Virus record (IMG/VR): IMGVR_UViG_3300037153_000285
Coordinates: 1-22,565 of that record
Source: a virus
Reading direction: 5' to 3' (one strand)
Length of the DNA: 22,565 nt
Below are positions 2,996 to 21,799 of this stretch, piece by piece (the first letter of the stretch is position 1; every line of letters starts with the position of its first letter). The position numbers were made by a program, and so were the translations under genes. The notes beneath the pieces were generated by a model that worked only from the letters and a program-made list of their open reading frames with translations, did not search any database and had not been told where the DNA came from.

Positions 2996-5900
2996 GAACT
3001 TCCGCGTCACTGGGACGAACGTCCCGATTGACAACAACCTCGGCCGTCTAGACGAGTCCGACCAAACTGCTGCGAACCGCGCGGACGGCTGGACTCAGGG
3101 CACGAAGGCTGCGGCCCAGATGTCCCCCTTCGACGCCGGTACCAAGCAGGCGTCCACGACTTTCACCGCGACCGTGCAGCCCGCCTCATTTGTCGATGGT
3201 TCGAACGCTACTGCGAATGCCTTCAAGACGATGTACCCGCTCAACGGGACGTTCGACGTTGGGAACTGGGTTTTCACGTTCGCAGTTCGCGCGGCCTCTT
3301 CGGCTACGGGGCAATGCGGCCGGATTCGGCTCCGGGTATTCAAGAGTACGAGCTACAATGGATCGGTAAGCCCGACTGAACTGACGGCCGCGACTCAGAT
3401 AGGGACGACGACTACCGCTCTGTCCACGAGCGCAGATCGCACTTCGGTCGTTACTTGGGCTCCAGGCACGACGATAGTCCTCAATAACGAGTTCTTGTTC
3501 TTCGTCGTCGCTTGGGAGGTTACGACCGCCGCGACGAACGCGAACGCCGATGTATTGATCCGCTCGGGGCAGTCGGCGGGCGGCTCGTTCCTGACGACGC
3601 CGAACTACACGCCGGTCGCTAACCCAATTTCGAATCTCAAAGATTCGTTCGTGTCGTCCTTCAATACGTTGGTCTGGACGGATTCCTACTTAGCGTCGTG
3701 GGACTCGGGCAATGGTGGTCAACTCGCTCTCCAATGTACGACTGGATATGGCTATATCGACACCGGGGCTCAGGCCAAGTCGTACGACCTCACCGGTGGC
3801 TCCCTGATTGCCAAGGTGACGCCGCCGCCGACGGGCAGCGGCTCGCGTGAGATGTTCATGGAGATCAGTCGGATCGGAACTTGGGGGTCGATCCGCGACG
3901 GTGTATCCCTGTACGTCAGCGGTGGCAATCTTGGTGCCTCTCGCAGACTAGCCGGGTCGGTCAGCGGATCGGCTACTGGGATCGCGTTCGATCCGGTGAA
4001 TCATAAGTGGTGGCGTATCCGGGAGTCAGGCGGAACGATCTACTGCGACACCTCGCCGGACGGAATCACCTGGAACAATTACTGGTCAACGGCGTCTGGG
4101 TTCGACGTTAGCGCTATTCATATCGATTTTTCTTGCGGATACTACGGCACTGAAACGGCGTCGAACGGGTATGTCGATGAGATCAACGTTCCTCCGAGCG
4201 CCTCGACCCCCATCTCCAGCAGCGATTCGGGAGTGGGCGGTGATTGGGGAGTTCCGACCTACAAGACCGAATACTTCTACGACACATTCGACACGTCCGT
4301 CGATCTCGCAAAGTGGAACGGATCTTCGTCCGATCCAGTTTGGGACGGCGGCGGACAGCGCTGCCGAATGCCCTGCGTCAGTAGCTACGCGACACTCGCT
4401 ACCGCGAACGACCGGCCGCTGCTCAACCTAACGGGGTCGTTCTTCATGGCGAAGGTGACGCCGCCGCCGGTCGGGACGAGTAGCCGCGAAATGACGATGG
4501 AGCTTCGGAATGTAGATGATAACACAAACAAGTACATGTTCTACTGGCAACAGGGGAACTTGTACATTCGCCGCTACCTTGCCGGAGCGGTCAGTGGTGA
4601 GAAGATCATTTCCTACAGCGCCTCAACCCAATGGTGGAGAGTTCGGGAGTCTGGCGGCACGATCTACTTTGATACGTCGCCCGACGGCGGCACTTGGACG
4701 AACCAGCTGACGACTGCGCCCGGATTCGATATCACTCGCTGTCGCTACGTCTTCCTCTGCGGATACTACGCTACTGAGTCGGCGGCGGATGGATACATCG
4801 ACAACATTAACGTCGTTCCTCCAATCTCCGTCTCCGGGACGGATACGAATGGAACGGTGACCGAGAGCGCCTCGGTCGTATTCAAGGCGACTGTCACTGA
4901 TACAGGAACTAGCTCCGAGACGAGCGCTCCAGCTAGCGCCCTGGCCGGGACTGATACCGGAACAGATTCAGAGTCTGCTGCGGTTCAAGTCTCGGCGTCT
5001 GACGCGAACGGCACGACGACCGAAGCGGCGTCCTTCCTGTATGCTCCGACGGATAGCGACAGCGGATCCGGAACGGACACCGCCTCATATCAGCAGGGCG
5101 GCGTTCAATTCGATACGGGCACCGGATCCGATAACGGCTCGCTGAACGTCAACGTACTGGCTGCAGACCCGTATGTCCGAACGTACGCAGATCTCCCGAA
5201 TGCGTTTGCGACCTATGCGGACATCCCGGCCAACGTCGATATCTATGCGCACCTGCCGTTCGTTCCCGTCTATCCGCTCACCACTGAAGATGCGACGGTT
5301 ACAGCCCTCATCCTGGCGGCGGATACCAACGGAGCGGTTGCCGAAGTAGCGACTATCGCCTCGACAGCGGCCGACGTAGGTACCAGCGTCGAGAGTACGG
5401 CCATCGTTGCCAAGATCACGGCGATAGCCGACTCTACCACGCTGGTCGATGAGACGGCCGCGCCGGTCTTCAAGGTCACGGTCACCGACGCAGGTACGGG
5501 CGTTGATGCGGTAGTTACTCGCACGGCCGCGCTCACGGGCACGGACAACAACGGAGCCGTTACCGAGACTCAATCGCTCGTCGCCAAGATATCGGACGAG
5601 GGTGCTCAGGGAGCAACTTACGATTCCGCGACACTCGTCGCCAAGTATACACAGACGGACGGAAGTGGGCCGACAGACGAGACGGCGGTCGCACAGTTCG
5701 TCAAGGTCAACGTTACGGACACGAATGGCGCGACGACCGAGACGATCTCTCTGCGGCTGTACGCATTTGATGCGAGTACCGGGACTGACAACGCGATCCT
5801 CGTCGCCAAGTTCATCGACACCGATGCCGGTAGCTCCTTCGAATTTGCCCTTTCGCCCGGTGGCGCGATCCCCGGATTCGATACGGGGGTCGGCACTGAG

Positions 5901-9273: not shown

Positions 9274-9480
9274 ATGCCGTCAGCATCGAAGCCGACGAAG
9301 TATCGCTACATCGGATCCCACGCAGCCGTTCTGGAAGGCGGGGCAGCGGTCGGTCCAGGCGACTACGTGAGTATCGATCCGGCGAACATGACCGGAGTCA
9401 ACCAGCAGATGCTCGATGACGGAGTTCTGATCGACGCGAGCGGGGTCAAGGAACCTGCGGCCAGTAAGGAGGAGGAGTGA
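9274..9480 (+). CDS. Small hypothetical protein (68 aa) before the sheath gene
   Basis: A very strong ribosome site (GGAGGGAGG, 9261-9269) precedes the ATG at 9274. Its TGA overlaps the sheath GTG start as GTGA. The product starts with a basic patch (ASKPTKYRYIG), continues as a probable small beta-barrel (SHAAVLEGGAAVGPGDYVSI) and ends in a Lys/Glu-rich tail (KEPAASKEEE). Small proteins of this kind between neck and tail tube genes are common in phages, but I cannot name a function. The strong translation signal suggests that it is made in quantity and may be a virion component. Confidence 0.76.
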   Translation: MPSASKPTKYRYIGSHAAVLEGGAAVGPGDYVSIDPANMTGVNQQMLDDGVLIDASGVKEPAASKEEE

Positions 9481-10925
9481 GCACTGTTCTCATCCGGCCG
9501 GGAGTCAACGTAACGCTGCGGCCGTCGCCGCCGTCACGTAGTCAACCGACCGATACCGGCGTCTGGTTCGTCACGGGTCTGGCGGATTCCGGCCCAACGG
9601 ATCCGACCCTGATCCAGAGCATCTCGGATTTCACGCGGATCTTTGGTCCGCGCCAGACGTACTCGATCCTGTACGACGCACTGGACACGTACTTCCGTGA
9701 GGGCGGCGCGCACGCCTACGTCGGCAGAGTAGTCGGACCTGGCGCATCCGTGGCCAATCTGGACCTGCTCGATTCGGGCAGTGCAGTCTCTCTCACCGCC
9801 TCGGCCATCGGGCCGGGAACGAGCGGCAACAACATCAAGGTCGGAGTCCGGGCGGGAACTCAGGGTGGCTACTTCGTCCTGTTCGTTCAGGACGGAACTG
9901 GTACCGAAGTGGAGACGAGTCCGGATCTCTTCGATCAGGGAGCGGCAATTCTCTGGGCCCAGAACTCCAACTACGTCCGGATCTCCGCAGGAGTCTCCGC
10001 GAACGATCCTGCCGTGGTCGGGGCGACGGCACTCAGTGGCGGAAATGACGACCGTGGCAATATCACGGACAACGAGTGGCAGGAGGCCCTGGATGGGTTC
10101 CCTGCGGATCTCGGCCCTGGACAGGTCAGCGCACCTGGACGCACTTCGGACATCGGCCATCAGCAGTTGGTCGATCACGCCGGTACACATCGGCGGGTCG
10201 CCATTCTGGACGCTCCGGACACCGGCACGGTCACGACCCTGCTCGCGTCGGCCATCGGCGCTCGGACGGGAAACCAGAAGTTCGCGGCGATGTTCTGGCC
10301 CTGGCTGATTGTTCCGGGTATCGTTCTCGGCTCTCGGCGGGTCGTGCCTCCGTCCGCGTTCGTGGCAGGAAACCTCTCGCGCAACGACTCCGGTGGCCTC
10401 GGAGCGGATCAGGCGGCTGCGGGTGACTACGGAGTCTCCCTGTTCACGGCCGACCTGACGCAGGCGGCACTTTCGGACACGGTTCGGATGCAGGTGAACG
10501 CGGGCGGCGTGGACGTCATCCGACTCGCCTATGGCACTTTCCGCACGTATGGGTGGCGGTCGCTGTCCGATCCGAACGCAGAGGCTCAGTGGCTCAACTT
10601 CGGTAACGCTCGCCTCTACATGAGCATCGCGGCGAATGCTCAGGCGATTGCAGAAGGGTTCATGTTCGACAAGATCGACGGGCAGGGCAAGACGATCAGC
10701 GCGTTCAACGGCGCGCTCTCGGGTCTGCTCAAGACGTACTGGGATAACGGTGACCTCTACGGAGTGTCTGCCACGGACGCGTTCTTTGTGGACACGGGAT
10801 CCCAGGTCAACACCCCGGCAACTATCGCCAACCACGAACTCCACGCAGTTCTGAACGTCTGCATGAGCGAGTTCGCCGAGATGGTTCAAATCGAGATCTT
10901 CAAGAAGCCGATCACGGGGGTGTGA
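9477..10925 (+). CDS. Contractile tail sheath protein
   Basis: The 482-aa product is a tail sheath protein, which polymerises round the inner tube and contracts to drive it through the host envelope. The GTG start follows AAGGAGG (9466-9472). Recognisable features are the N-terminal 'RPGVNVTLRP' with a sheath-type 'FVTGLADSGPTDPTLIQSIS' and 'FTRIFGPRQTYSILYDAL', followed by 'YFREGGAHAYVGRVVG'. The variable middle domain includes 'GVDVIRLAYGTFRTYGW' and 'WLNFGNARLYMSIAANAQ'. The C-terminal domain closes with 'ELHAVLNVCMSEFAEMVQI' and 'IFKKP'. Length fits the family (about 350-700 aa). The tube gene follows at once, the usual order in myoviruses. This gene is the main evidence for a contractile tail. 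Confidence 0.95.
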   Translation: MSTVLIRPGVNVTLRPSPPSRSQPTDTGVWFVTGLADSGPTDPTLIQSISDFTRIFGPRQTYSILYDALDTYFREGGAHAYVGRVVGPGASVANLDLLDSGSAVSLTASAIGPGTSGNNIKVGVRAGTQGGYFVLFVQDGTGTEVETSPDLFDQGAAILWAQNSNYVRISAGVSANDPAVVGATALSGGNDDRGNITDNEWQEALDGFPADLGPGQVSAPGRTSDIGHQQLVDHAGTHRRVAILDAPDTGTVTTLLASAIGARTGNQKFAAMFWPWLIVPGIVLGSRRVVPPSAFVAGNLSRNDSGGLGADQAAAGDYGVSLFTADLTQAALSDTVRMQVNAGGVDVIRLAYGTFRTYGWRSLSDPNAEAQWLNFGNARLYMSIAANAQAIAEGFMFDKIDGQGKTISAFNGALSGLLKTYWDNGDLYGVSATDAFFVDTGSQVNTPATIANHELHAVLNVCMSEFAEMVQIEIFKKPITGV

Positions 10926-10929
10926 GTAG

Positions 10930-11388
10930 ATGAGCACTCAGATCCGAGGCACGAGGCAAGACACCTGGCAGGTAACGCTGCAGGTGGAACATCCCCACAA
11001 TCCCGGTAGCTTCATCAACTACGGGGTCTGGGACACCAAAAGCGGCGGCGAACTCGACTCCGAGGAGCACCTGTACTATCCGGGTGGGATGAACCCGCCG
11101 TACTCACTCGGTGGCCGGATCACGCCGGGGCAGATTACCATCTCACGGAACTACCGTCTCAGCCGCGATCACGACAATATCCAGCAGTTGGTGGACGCGG
11201 TAGGCGTGTCGCGCGTCCTTATCTCGCAGCAGCCGATGGACCGATACAAGAACCACTACGGTCGTCCCATCGTCTGGACGGGCACTCTCAAGACACTGAC
11301 TCTTCCCGAGCACAACTCGGAGAGCACGTCGGATCCGGCGATGATCGAGATCGTCTGTTCAATCGACAACGCACCGACTAGCACGTAG
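10930..11388 (+). CDS. Tail tube protein
   Basis: The 152-aa product follows the sheath gene after a 4-base gap, with GGGGGTG inside the sheath end as ribosome site. It shows the beta-rich make-up of contractile-tail tube proteins: 'WQVTLQVEHPHNPGSFINYG', a loop (TKSGGELDSEEHLYYPGG), a strand (GRITPGQITISRNY), a helix (HDNIQQLVDAVG) and final strands (RPIVWTGTLKTLTLP; AMIEIVCSI). In the family this fold stacks as hexamer rings to form the inner conduit. Position between sheath and tail assembly chaperones supports the call. Confidence 0.88.
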   Translation: MSTQIRGTRQDTWQVTLQVEHPHNPGSFINYGVWDTKSGGELDSEEHLYYPGGMNPPYSLGGRITPGQITISRNYRLSRDHDNIQQLVDAVGVSRVLISQQPMDRYKNHYGRPIVWTGTLKTLTLPEHNSESTSDPAMIEIVCSIDNAPTST

Positions 11389-11408: not shown

Positions 11409-11960
11409 GTGGAAGAGATTGAACAAGCGCCTCCGCTGGTTCACGAGATCACCGATGACGAGCAGGTAAAGCCGCCGACCCTCTCGGATCAGCTGCGGGC
11501 ACGGCGAACCGAGATCGCTGAATCGAAGGATGTCCTGCTACCTTTGACCGGCTACGAGGATATCGGCGTCATGGTGAAGCATCGTCTGATGGAGAGAAGT
11601 GAAGTCGAGACGATGGGCAGGAAGGTGCTGGGCGAGACTCGGGATCGTGGCGAGCGGAACATGCGTATCCTGCTCGACACGATCCTGAACTCGACACTTG
11701 GGTTCTACGTTCAACCGGATGGTGGCGAACCCGAGCAAGTTCTCGACGACCGGAACGGGGATCGGCCGGTCATCAACTGGGACGAGTTCGCTCGCTACCT
11801 GGGGTGGATGCCGACGGATCAAGGTGATGCGCGCTCGGCCCTGTACTGGATCTTCGGTAGCAACGAGTTCGCCGTCGGCCAGTACGGCATCATGCTTAAC
11901 CGCTGGATGGGAAACACCGCGATCAAGGTCGATGAAGAGTTCCTGGGGGAAGGGCTCTAG
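11409..11960 (+). CDS. Tail assembly chaperone (lambda gpG-like, unshifted product)
   Basis: The GTG at 11409 follows AGGAGG (11396-11401) at normal spacing. The 183-aa protein is helical and acidic: an unstructured N-terminus, then 'GYEDIGVMVKHRLMERSEV', a helical core (RNMRILLDTILNSTLGFYV), a short beta loop (GGEPEQVLDDRNGDRP) and the conserved-looking C-terminal region (INWDEFARYLGWMPTDQ; SALYWIFGSNEFAVGQYG). Position between tube and tape measure is where phages encode the gpG-type chaperone that coats the tape measure during tail assembly. The last codons carry the slip site from which the longer gpG-T form is made. Confidence 0.85.
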   Translation: MEEIEQAPPLVHEITDDEQVKPPTLSDQLRARRTEIAESKDVLLPLTGYEDIGVMVKHRLMERSEVETMGRKVLGETRDRGERNMRILLDTILNSTLGFYVQPDGGEPEQVLDDRNGDRPVINWDEFARYLGWMPTDQGDARSALYWIFGSNEFAVGQYGIMLNRWMGNTAIKVDEEFLGEGL

Positions 11961-12157
11961 AGATCCCCGATGAGATCAAAGCCGCAGCCCAAGTCGCTCT
12001 CTCCGGACAAGATCCGTTCGAGTACCTCCGGACGGATGACTCGGAGAAGAGAACGATAATGGCCGCGATAGCCTTGCAGTATCAGAAGATTCTGCTCGAT
12101 CTTAACGAGGATCTCGCCGTCAAGGTGATTAACCGTCTCGCGGAGTCATTGAAGTAA
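11409..12157 (+). CDS. Tail assembly chaperone gpG-T fusion made by -1 programmed frameshift
   Basis: Between the gpG-like stop (11958-11960) and the tape-measure start (12157) the -1 frame is open to a TAA at 12155-12157. It encodes a sensible helical peptide of 68 residues (RALEIPDEIKAAAQVALSG ... FEYLRTDDSEKRTIMAAIAL ... VKVINRLAESLK). That frame has a stop at 11933-11935 and no usable start except an internal ATG at 12059, so it must be entered by a shift between 11936 and 11957. G GGG GAA (11945-11951) lies exactly there. Tandem slippage would give a fusion of about 249 aa. In lambda the rare gpGT fusion binds the tape measure by its T part and recruits tube subunits. This arrangement is conserved across many tailed phages, which supports the reading. 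The coordinates cover both frames; translation is discontinuous at the slip. Confidence 0.82.
11945..11951 (+). promoter_or_regulatory. Candidate -1 ribosomal slippery site G GGG GAA
   Basis: In the gpG frame the codons are GGG (11946-11948) and GAA (11949-11951), preceded by G at 11945. After a -1 slip the P-site tRNA re-pairs fully with GGG and the A-site tRNA meets GGA with one mismatch. The heptamer lies 12 bases after the last -1-frame stop and 6 bases before the zero-frame stop, so it is in the only possible window. I see no clear downstream pseudoknot. Confidence 0.72.
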
Positions 12158-14394
12158 TGGCGTTCGGACGCGCAACCGCTGAATTGCGTATCCGCCTTTC
12201 AGGGCGGGCATCCGCTCAGGCAGATCTAGCGGCTGTACGACACGAGGAAGAAAAGCTAGCAGCAACTACAAAGACGGTCGGTAAGGCGACCGAGGAAACG
12301 CAGCGGCGTTCGTTCCTCATGAACCAAGCTCTCTTCACGATGCGTCGGTATGCGTACGCTGCGACCCTTGGTTTGACTGCGTTGGGTAGTGCCGCTGTCG
12401 TGATGGGAATCAAGTTCAACGCCTCGATGGAAATGAACGAAGTCGCGTTCACACAGTTCCTCGGCTCGCAGGTTAAGGCTCGCAAGGAACTGCAGTACCT
12501 GTATAAGCTCGCCAAGTATACGCCATTCGAATTCTCCAACGTGACCGACGCGGCCCGCAGGTTCCTGGCATTCGGGTTCACGGTCAAGGAAGCGAACAAG
12601 TACCTCCAGATCATTGGCGACTCGGTAGCGGCGTTCGGTGGCGGCAGCGAGCAGATCGAGCGTATGGTTACCGTGATCGGGCAGGTGCGTGCGAGCGGGC
12701 GTCTCCTCGGGCAAGATATGCTCCAGCTAGAGCAGCAGGGCATCCCAGTTCTGGATATTCTGCAGAAGCAGCTGACCAAGATGGGGTACAGCGTTACTAG
12801 AAAGCAGTTGGCGAAGGTCGGCGAACTAGGGATTCCGTCTGAGATCGGTATTCCGGCACTCATGGCTGGCATGCAGGAAAGATTCGGCGGGATGAGTGCG
12901 AAGCAGGCTAAGACGGCGGTGGGTCAGTGGTCTACCCTTCACGACTCTATCCAGCAGGTTATGGGCGGCCTTACGACGACGGCGTTCGTCAAGGGGTCGA
13001 AGGGCATCCTACCAGCCCTCAACAAGATGTTTGGGGATATGGGTGATCTTGTCCAAAGACAACACGGTCGCCTTTCTCTTAATCAGGCGTTTGGTATAGC
13101 AAAGAAGGATTTCCCGCAGTTTAAGACCCTGATTGATCTCCTCCATCAAATTGCTACGGCCGTCAAGAACTTCGCAGTCATGCTCAAAGATTTGCTACCG
13201 CTCTTGGGCTTGCTTGTCCTTGTACTCGATCTCGTTCTCAAGATTCTCAATCCGATCATTGGACTCTTCGCCCAGCAGACGTGGTGGAGCAAGATCATGC
13301 GGGCCGTTCTCCTCGGCCTAATCACCTCCTGGCTCATTCAGATACTTGTTCTGCACCGGGCAAAGAAGGCCCTGGATGCAGAGAAGGAAGCCAGTATTGC
13401 GTGGACGGCAGCGAAGTTTGTTATGGCCAGAACGCTGAAGGGGATTACCCTCGCTTACGGGTATTTGATTCCTAGAATGAAGTCGTACATCAGCCTGCTG
13501 ATAAAAGGGCGTGAGGCGAACGGCAAGACGAGCTACGCGACTAACACTCTGAAGGGTCGAGTGCTTCAGCTTCATATCGCCCTGCGCAAGGCCATCCTTT
13601 CGGTTAAGGCACTGGCGACCGCGTGGATTAAGTCCTTGAAGAAGATGGCAATTGCGGCCTGGGAGTTCATAGCCGACAGCGGTCCGATTGGCTGGATCAT
13701 TGCCGCCATTCTAATCGTTACCGTGGGCCTGGTCGTCCTCTACTTCAGGTGGAAGAAGTTCCATGACCTCGTCAACCGAACTGCGCAGTGGCTCTGGAAG
13801 CACTGGAAGCTCGCCGCAGTTGCTCTCTTCCTGTTCTTCGGGCCATTGGCGGCATTCGCCCTGATAATTGCCAAGCACTGGAAGCTAGTCCTCGCCGTCC
13901 TTAAAGAGATTTGGAACTTCTTCAAGATAATGTGGCAATGGATCGTCGATCACTGGCGACAACTCGTACATATTCTACTCATTCCTTTGGGGCCGTTCGG
14001 AACAGCGATAGAAGTGATCATCGATAAGTGGAACAGCATGTGGAGGATGATCGGGAAAATCATCGATAGGATCAAGAGCATGATAGGATGGCTCAAGAAG
14101 ATTCCGGGTGTCGCCGCTTTTCTGCGTTGGACGACCGGGTCTGGCGCACCACCGACTCTAGGCACGCCCGGTGCCGCCTCTCCATATGCCATGCAGAGCA
14201 CCTGGCACCCTGCAGCAGCCGCCACGAATAGCGGGGCCATCCCGGTCTTAGGTGAATCACCTGTCATTGGCTCAGCGGCGAATGGAAAGAAGAAGGACAC
14301 GCACATCACCACCCACACGAGCATTGTGGTCGATGGGAAGAAGATTGCGGAGGCAACGTCAAAGCATCGACAGAATAAGGGAGCACGTAGATAA
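12157..14394 (+). CDS. Tail tape measure protein
   Basis: The start overlaps the stop of the gpG-T frame (TAATG). The 745-aa product begins with an Ala/Arg-rich helical region containing 'RHEEEKLAATTKTVGKATEE'. It continues with the tape-measure N-terminal domain: 'ASMEMNEVAFTQFLGSQVKA', 'LYKLAKYTPFEFSNVTDAAR', 'FGGGSEQIERMVTVIGQVRA' and 'GRLLGQDMLQLEQQGIPVLD'. Four hydrophobic segments follow at about residues 346-374, 379-400, 509-531 and 551-572. These are typical of tape measures, which help DNA cross the host membrane. The C-terminus has 'VVDGKKIAEATSKH', a form often seen at the end of phage tape measures. At about 1.5 angstroms per residue the length predicts a tail near 110 nm. It sits between the chaperones and the baseplate genes as expected. 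Confidence 0.93.
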   Translation: MAFGRATAELRIRLSGRASAQADLAAVRHEEEKLAATTKTVGKATEETQRRSFLMNQALFTMRRYAYAATLGLTALGSAAVVMGIKFNASMEMNEVAFTQFLGSQVKARKELQYLYKLAKYTPFEFSNVTDAARRFLAFGFTVKEANKYLQIIGDSVAAFGGGSEQIERMVTVIGQVRASGRLLGQDMLQLEQQGIPVLDILQKQLTKMGYSVTRKQLAKVGELGIPSEIGIPALMAGMQERFGGMSAKQAKTAVGQWSTLHDSIQQVMGGLTTTAFVKGSKGILPALNKMFGDMGDLVQRQHGRLSLNQAFGIAKKDFPQFKTLIDLLHQIATAVKNFAVMLKDLLPLLGLLVLVLDLVLKILNPIIGLFAQQTWWSKIMRAVLLGLITSWLIQILVLHRAKKALDAEKEASIAWTAAKFVMARTLKGITLAYGYLIPRMKSYISLLIKGREANGKTSYATNTLKGRVLQLHIALRKAILSVKALATAWIKSLKKMAIAAWEFIADSGPIGWIIAAILIVTVGLVVLYFRWKKFHDLVNRTAQWLWKHWKLAAVALFLFFGPLAAFALIIAKHWKLVLAVLKEIWNFFKIMWQWIVDHWRQLVHILLIPLGPFGTAIEVIIDKWNSMWRMIGKIIDRIKSMIGWLKKIPGVAAFLRWTTGSGAPPTLGTPGAASPYAMQSTWHPAAAATNSGAIPVLGESPVIGSAANGKKKDTHITTHTSIVVDGKKIAEATSKHRQNKGARR

Positions 14395-21141: not shown

Positions 21142-21378
21142 ATGTTGCCTCTGGCTATCGATTGGAGCCCCGAGCTAATACTTGCGCTAGCAGGTTTGGC
21201 CACGGCCATCGGTGGCATAGCTACGTCGATAACCGGGGTCGTGATGAACAGGCGAGCGATGAAGGATGAGACGACTAAGGAGCTAGAGGATAAGCTCCGC
21301 AAGACGAGGGCGGAAGCAGAGAAGTATGCCGAGGAGCTACACGAGTTGAGAATGAAGGAACTGTCAGATGAAGATTAG
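21142..21378 (+). CDS. Small single-span membrane protein, possible holin-like
   Basis: 78-aa product beginning immediately after the fibre stop. There is one hydrophobic segment (about residues 10-33, [20 protein letters not shown]) and then a charged helix (about 40-78) with heptad-like Lys/Glu spacing ([20 protein letters not shown]), suggesting a coiled coil. This resembles small membrane proteins often found at the end of the tail module in actinobacteriophages, sometimes annotated as holin or 'membrane protein'. With only one membrane segment and no endolysin next to it, a lysis role is a guess. Its stop overlaps the next start by 11 bases, so the two proteins may be made and used together. 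Confidence 0.8.
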
Positions 21379-21799
21379 CACAAAGCGGTTAGCCATTGTC
21401 ACGACGGTCGCGTCGGGAGTTCTGTTCGTAGCGGCTGGCGGGTTCGGAGCCGCCGCCATCCTCAAGTCGCAGCAACAGGTTCCGTCGAAGACTGTCACTG
21501 TCGATGTGGGTACTGGAACGCCGGGGCCACCCGGCCCCAAGGGAGATACCGGCCCCGCTGGGCCCGCTGGGCCAGCCGGTCAGAAAGGAGACAAGGGCGA
21601 CCCTGGGCCTGCTGGAGCCGCTGGACCCAAAGGGGATACCGGGCCTGCGGGGCCGAAGGGAGATGCGGGAGCCGCAGGCCCGCCTGGGCCTCCCGGCCCC
21701 GCAGGGTCTACTGAGTGTCCGGCCGGTTCGACGTTCGGTAAGCTAGTCATCAACGCCCCGAAGGGGCAAGTTGCTATCTATGCCTGCATTGTAGACTAG
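21368..21799 (+). CDS. Membrane-anchored collagen-like protein
   Basis: AAGGAA precedes the ATG at 21368 within the previous gene. The 143-aa protein has a basic N-terminus (MKISTKR) and one hydrophobic segment (about residues 8-31), a signal anchor or signal peptide. Residues about 49-114 are 22 consecutive Gly-X-Y triplets, many with Pro at X and [19 protein letters not shown]-type charge pairs that stabilise collagen trimers. The C-terminal 29 residues ([18 protein letters not shown] ... YACIVD) hold two cysteines and may be a trimerising or disulphide-linked knob. I recall this knob from several actinobacteriophages, with no known function. If exported, the protein could form a trimeric stalk on the host surface late in infection; if cleaved, it could be a virion part. 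Confidence 0.86.

Follow-up and report, generated by a model that had tools for sequence, protein, structure and literature searches.

The window, by which we mean the whole stretch of DNA analysed here, comprises 22,565 bases (positions 1-22,565 of the IMG/VR virus record IMGVR_UViG_3300037153_000285), and the virus that carries it is a soil phage with a contractile tail. On its plus strand, genes for a tail sheath (9477-10925; PHROG 23 tail sheath, 4e-30) and a tail tube (10930-11388; PHROG 5102 tail tube, 5.7e-16) precede a short chaperone gene, an extension in a second reading frame and a tape measure gene (12157-14394; Pfam TMP_3, 7e-20), the order thus being sheath, tube, chaperone, extension, tape measure. 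The tape measure is followed by a tail protein in which Pfam and PHROG searches recognise NlpC/P60, and a neck protein and baseplate genes lie on either side of the sheath-to-NlpC/P60 genes; this region is the tail module of a contractile phage. The whole window found no match by megablast, and the closest cultured sheaths, among the best 25 of 93 matches, belong to Gordonia, Brevibacterium and Arthrobacter phages at 28-32% identity. Elsewhere in the window, a small protein at the end of the tail module (21368-21799) contains a collagen-like repeat (Pfam Collagen, 2.6e-10), and a 467-codon open frame antisense to the sheath gene (9534-10937, minus strand) is most likely a codon-phase artefact of the listing.

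A short gene and an overlapping -1 frame

The short gene (11409-11960, plus strand), the putative short form of a tail assembly chaperone and counterpart of gpG, sits between the tail tube and tape measure genes and is kept in relatives. It starts with GTG, encodes 183 amino acids and ends at a TAG (11958-11960), its 3' end reading TTC CTG GGG GAA GGG CTC TAG. Overlapping this end, the -1 frame is open from 11936 to 12157, and the interval within which a -1 slip could join the two frames (11936-11957, plus strand) is delimited by a TGA in the -1 frame (11933-11935) and by the TAG in the 0 frame. Inside that interval lies the putative slip site, G GGG GAA (11945-11951, plus strand). Shifted reading would resume at the AGG that begins at 11951 and yield 68 residues, the extension (11951-12157, plus strand, a counterpart of the T part of gpGT) thus consisting of 68 codons and a TAA (12155-12157); the final A of this stop, at 12157, also opens the tape-measure ATG (TAATG). 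The predicted long product therefore has 181 shared and 68 new residues, 249 in all.

A first-pass annotation made from the letters of the sequence had proposed precisely such a 68-residue extension running up to the tape-measure start, devoid of a usable start codon of its own and reached by a slip at G GGG GAA within 11936-11957. The layout so described is borne out: the frame is open and its translation has 68 residues, the heptamer occupies the claimed phase, and in the window no ATG, GTG or TTG occurs in the -1 frame from 11936 ahead of the Met codon at 12059-12061. One amendment concerns the junction peptide FLGE-RALEIPDEIK put forward in the same annotation for mass spectrometry; trypsin would cleave it after R, so that the diagnostic tryptic spanning peptide is VDEEFLGER.

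Conservation and selection across 22 junctions

Relatives were collected by three scans of IMG/VR, which gave overlapping sets of 8, 6 and 30 loci and, together with the window, a starting set of 45 records (the window, L001-L014 and L016-L045; L015 duplicates the window itself and is excluded). Removal of two records that end before the junction (L038 and L045) and of 21 exact duplicates over about 750 bases left 22 distinct junctions, namely the window and 21 viral contigs from many samples, all uncultured, whose chaperones are 49-70% identical to that of the window. Two of these (L033 and L034) have identical aligned chaperone proteins, which leaves 21 distinct at the protein level; L007 stops inside the extension and does not enter the 21-locus count of stop/start overlap given below, and the extension alignment takes in 20 of the 22 extensions, L007 and L034 being left out. 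Outside this group, tblastn of the chaperone and of the extension against 50,697 phage records found no match for either, a chaperone profile search of genome contigs gave 42 stretches that fit a pattern, none of them confirmed, and comparison of the chaperone with the sequences of solved structures gave a single match that is meaningless at E 0.99.

The short gene, a stop shortly 3' of the heptamer and the -1 extension are present in 22/22 junctions, and every one of them retains G GGG GAA unbroken and in phase. Conservation of the heptamer and of the -1 frame among relatives had been named beforehand as checks on the frameshift proposal, and both hold throughout (22/22 in each case). These counts also dispose of the suspicion that errors of sequencing or assembly, or decay of the gene, produced the frame break: although the window is a single metagenomic contig record and runs of G are error-prone, the same break, heptamer and stop layout recur in 22 distinct junctions and both coding parts are under purifying selection, so that this explanation is already refuted and its probability is close to nil. 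The heptamer is not rare as such, as the window contains two copies of GGGGGAA against 3.3 expected by shuffling; what stands above chance is its conservation, position and phase across all 22 junctions.

Since Leu-Gly-Glu is kept at the protein level, synonymous sites serve as a test of selection on the nucleotides themselves, and we counted synonymous changes on a tree constructed with the junction columns omitted. In all 22 junctions the heptamer has GGG as its Gly codon, with 0 changes on the tree, as against 9, 8, 7, 6, 6, 7 and 6 at the other seven Gly codons that are conserved. In the Leu codon ahead of it, the third base is always G (0 changes, versus 4-7 at six other conserved Leu codons), while the first base of that same codon alternates on the same tree between C and T, giving 4 changes in the codon as a whole. 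The Glu codon is GAA in 22/22 junctions, in genes where GAG serves for 352 of 474 Glu codons and GAA for 122; because three other conserved Glu codons likewise never vary, all three being GAG, the invariance of GAA is by itself weaker evidence. Taken together, the frozen bases at the junction are the bases of the heptamer, with 0 synonymous changes among the 22 sequences. Slippage of RNA polymerase on the five Gs, in place of a slip by the ribosome, would join the same two frames and would accommodate the fact that the G run belongs to the conserved site; five Gs are nonetheless a short run for transcriptional slippage, and a slipping polymerase would be indifferent to whether the A-site codon is GAA or GAG, whereas every junction has GAA, and we hold this reading to be highly improbable.

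The extension itself evolves as a protein. Its length is 68-71 residues in the 21 of the 22 junctions where it is complete, and over the 63-codon block common to all 22 sequences pN/pS is 0.455 in the -1 frame, as compared with 0.99 and 1.28 for the remaining two frames, where 35 and 60 stops occur; over the whole extension the ratio is 0.442, and over the chaperone it is 0.455. As an alternative to frameshifting, the extension could be an independent small gene that begins at a start codon of its own, be it the Met codon at 12059-12061, which is invariant in 22/22 aligned extensions, or a rare start, some ATG, GTG or TTG occurring earlier in the frame in 8 of the 22. These earlier codons, however, lie at scattered positions and are absent from the other 14, and across all 22 sequences pN/pS is 0.387 before the invariant Met versus 0.441 after it, an order that is reversed, on few data, in the four divergent sequences taken alone (0.58 before, 0.36 after). 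The stretch ahead of the Met is therefore at least as constrained as the remainder, and an internal start at that Met does not explain the extension. An independent start, which had been specified in advance as the finding that would speak against a frameshift, is thus rejected, given purifying selection upstream of the Met and no conserved start; a separate gene would also leave the frozen codons of the heptamer unexplained, and we regard it as very unlikely, if a shade less so than polymerase slippage.

In 16 of 21 loci the extension's stop and the start codon of the tape measure overlap (offset 2 or -1), and in the other five they lie no more than 11 bases apart. Such a stop/start overlap (12155-12159 in the window) could couple translation of the tape measure to frameshifted ribosomes.

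Flanking signals, predicted fold and cultured counterparts

Upstream of the slip site, a purine-rich GAAGAG (11934-11939, plus strand) is a possible internal Shine-Dalgarno element, weak in the window itself. The corresponding hexamer, 5 bases ahead of the heptamer, contains GGAG in 20 of the 22 junctions, the variants being GAGGAG (16), CAGGAG (2), GCGGAG (1), ACGGAG (1) and GAAGAG (2, including the window). Downstream, the folding energy of 40, 60 or 90 nucleotides after a 5-nucleotide spacer is, over the 22 sequences, no lower than that of shuffles (mean z +0.35 to +0.50), and RNAalifold returns a 7-pair helix that includes the heptamer itself and in which no pair is changed on both sides. 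A candidate stem that pairs 11967-11975 with 11998-12006 was picked by eye from these same sequences. Its seven pairs have 89.6% of cells paired, and two of them show changes on both sides (5 cells, four of which come from one sister clade). Its covariation score exceeds all 500 shuffles as well as slid versions of the stem, while its number of pairs changed on both sides is matched by 134 of 500 shuffles and its number of pair types by 377 of 500, both ordinary values. Stimulatory hairpins or pseudoknots typically begin about 5-9 nucleotides after the slip site, and the 15-nucleotide spacer of this stem is long. The first ten or so codons of the extension (11963-11992) show fewer synonymous changes than expected (22 versus 36.6, at nine conserved positions in 18 of the 22 sequences, the four divergent ones being left out), a ratio lower than in any other segment with at least five positions. 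No convincing structural stimulator emerged from these energy and covariation analyses.

When the window and all aligned members were searched against Pfam and PHROGs, no family recognised the short part or the extension, the matches obtained being scattered, weak and absent from most members. Structure prediction was more informative. The model of the 183-residue product has a mean pLDDT of 79.3 and a pTM of 0.72, and among viral models Foldseek gives as its best named match the tail assembly chaperone of phage Cantare (E 1.4e-4), surpassed solely by an unnamed phage protein (E 4.7e-8). A Foldseek search of the PDB ranks the HK97 tail assembly chaperone first, although its E of 0.24 is not significant; in a second structural comparison two solved structures stand apart with modest scores, YqbN, which we take to be a tail assembly chaperone of the same kind, at Z 8.4 (114 residues at 8.2 A) and the HK97 chaperone at Z 4.8, whereas no further row exceeds 2.3. 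In its predicted fold the short product thus resembles tail assembly chaperones, which, together with the gene order, agrees with the identity first assigned to this gene. The extension, modelled alone, forms three helices with a mean pLDDT of 92.6. Profile comparisons by hhalign with cultured phages, which reached E 0.0011 over 39 columns at a probability of 20.6% for the extension against the -1 extensions of eight phages and E 0.014 for the short part against their chaperones, are weak and are best taken as leads only.

The natural point of reference is phage lambda, whose gpG/gpGT tail assembly chaperone frameshift was reportedly described by Xu and colleagues in 2004, and whose slip site, GGGAAAG, differs from the GGGGGAA of the window. 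The lambda G/GT scheme is described as widely conserved in long-tailed phages in a review (PMC5009743), and the present locus is alike in its position ahead of the tape measure, in the -1 direction, in the short and extended chaperones produced from one start and in an extension without a start of its own. The lambda tail is non-contractile, unlike that of the window phage. The features found here are those of a lambda-type system: a location between tube and tape measure, a startless overlapping -1 frame kept in relatives, a conserved putative slip site just ahead of the short gene's stop and a chaperone-like predicted fold of the short product.

For GGGGGAA itself, the PRFect paper (PMC10885494) defines a 'fivetwo' motif, with about a thousand SEA-PHAGES cases that are nearly all tail assembly chaperones, although its authors call the SEA-PHAGES annotations, from which the motif was inferred, highly repetitive. 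The present site has the same five identical and two identical bases, in phase at the chaperone frame overlap, and so shares heptamer, gene and direction with the SEA-PHAGES cases covered there; those are cultured and annotated actinophages, whereas our 22 sequences come from uncultured contigs, and none of the phage records searched matches their chaperone. The first-pass annotation had called the site imperfect on account of one A-site mismatch. This is formally correct, as G GGG GAA departs from the strict X XXY YYZ pattern, the shift placing GAA onto GGA, and all three A-site positions are paired after the shift only with a G:U pair in the middle; the site is nevertheless less unusual than was implied, given that GGGGGAA has already been reported and that G:U pairing, through which every position of the shifted A-site codon would be paired, as already proposed in the PRFect paper (PMC10885494), removes the mismatch. 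A further precedent is gp14/gp14A of corynephage phi16, for which a GGGGGAA slip, an internal Shine-Dalgarno and a pseudoknot have been proposed (PMC5506516); in the phi16 record GGGGGAA is in phase, 10 bases before the 0-frame stop. In contrast to the window, phi16 is a siphovirus with a longer -1 frame, and its proposed pseudoknot has no established counterpart here.

Our own cultured comparison covered phi16 and eight contractile actinophages spanning genera, taken from 93 phage records with a sheath match. None of the eight carries GGGGGAA at the matching place. Five have CCCTTTG or CCCTTTA in phase there (Gordonia phages GMA6, ChisanaKitsune, UBSmoodge and DalanDe, and Brevibacterium phage Cantare); these resemble the window in gene order, in a sheath 30-32% identical and, weakly, in the A-D-P-L pattern of a -1 extension, and differ from it in having a canonical heptamer in place of GGGGGAA. 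The two frames are joined in the records of four of the eight, all cultured Gordonia phages.

Some of these records probably lack an annotated frameshift. Cantare gp23 (L047, 3228-3335), annotated as hypothetical, falls within the chaperone's -1 extension (3132-3335), in whose overlap CCCTTTA occurs, and is probably a missed frameshift and not a gene. Three Arthrobacter phages, BarretLemon (L051, 2988-3230), Vibaki (L052, 2696-2983) and Klevey (L053, 2350-2763), have a single annotated chaperone without a joined frame, yet an A-D-P pattern is present in the -1 frame that comes next. Where Gordonia phages have CCCTTTG, these three read C CCT ACC, and they likely harbour an unannotated frameshift at a poorly re-pairing site.

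A probable frameshift of the lambda G/GT kind and its implications

The anatomy of the locus, the conservation of heptamer and -1 frame without any conserved start, the frozen codons, the chaperone-like fold and the gene order all argue for programmed -1 ribosomal frameshifting as in the G/GT system of lambda, with products of 183 and 249 amino acids, a reading proposed in the first-pass annotation and to which we assign a probability of about 0.94. In the mechanism that we infer, which covers the slip and its rate, the tandem G:U route and the roles of both proteins, most ribosomes would continue to the TAG of 11409-11960 and release the 183-residue chaperone, while in a fraction of them the tRNA-Gly on GGG and the tRNA-Glu on GAA (11945-11951) would move back in tandem by a single base and settle on GGG GGA, the A-site tRNA re-pairing through a G:U pair. 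The slipped ribosomes would go on in the -1 frame to the 249-residue protein and stop at the TAA that runs into the tape-measure ATG. If lambda is a guide, the tape measure would be coated by the part common to both proteins, and tail tube subunits would be brought in by the extension.

A more elaborate version, which we consider doubtful, is that the site works without RNA structure, the GGAG-containing element (20/22) at its fixed 5-base spacing driving the slip together with GGGGGAA; in E. coli dnaX the spacing between the internal element and the slip site is longer than 5 bases. Under such a scheme the invariant GAA, in the face of the strong preference for GAG, would select a tRNA-Glu with U at the wobble position, that is, the isoacceptor able to re-pair on GGA; and with the extension terminating at the tape-measure start, tape-measure translation would in part be set by the slip rate as well. 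If true, one signal would tie three tail components together.

As regards the lambda G/GT-type frameshift proper, -1 frameshifting, the chaperone gene and even the imperfect GGGGGAA heptamer are already known; what is new is a sequence-distinct phage group with strong selection on the slip site. These contractile phages offer a clean comparative case of GGGGGAA under strong codon-level selection, with synonymous positions that freeze precisely at the seven bases of the heptamer. At this point of the tail module, phages whose sheaths are related thus differ in their slip site, some having CCCTTTG and others GGGGGAA. Gene callers that rely on start codons would miss the 249-residue product throughout this phage group.
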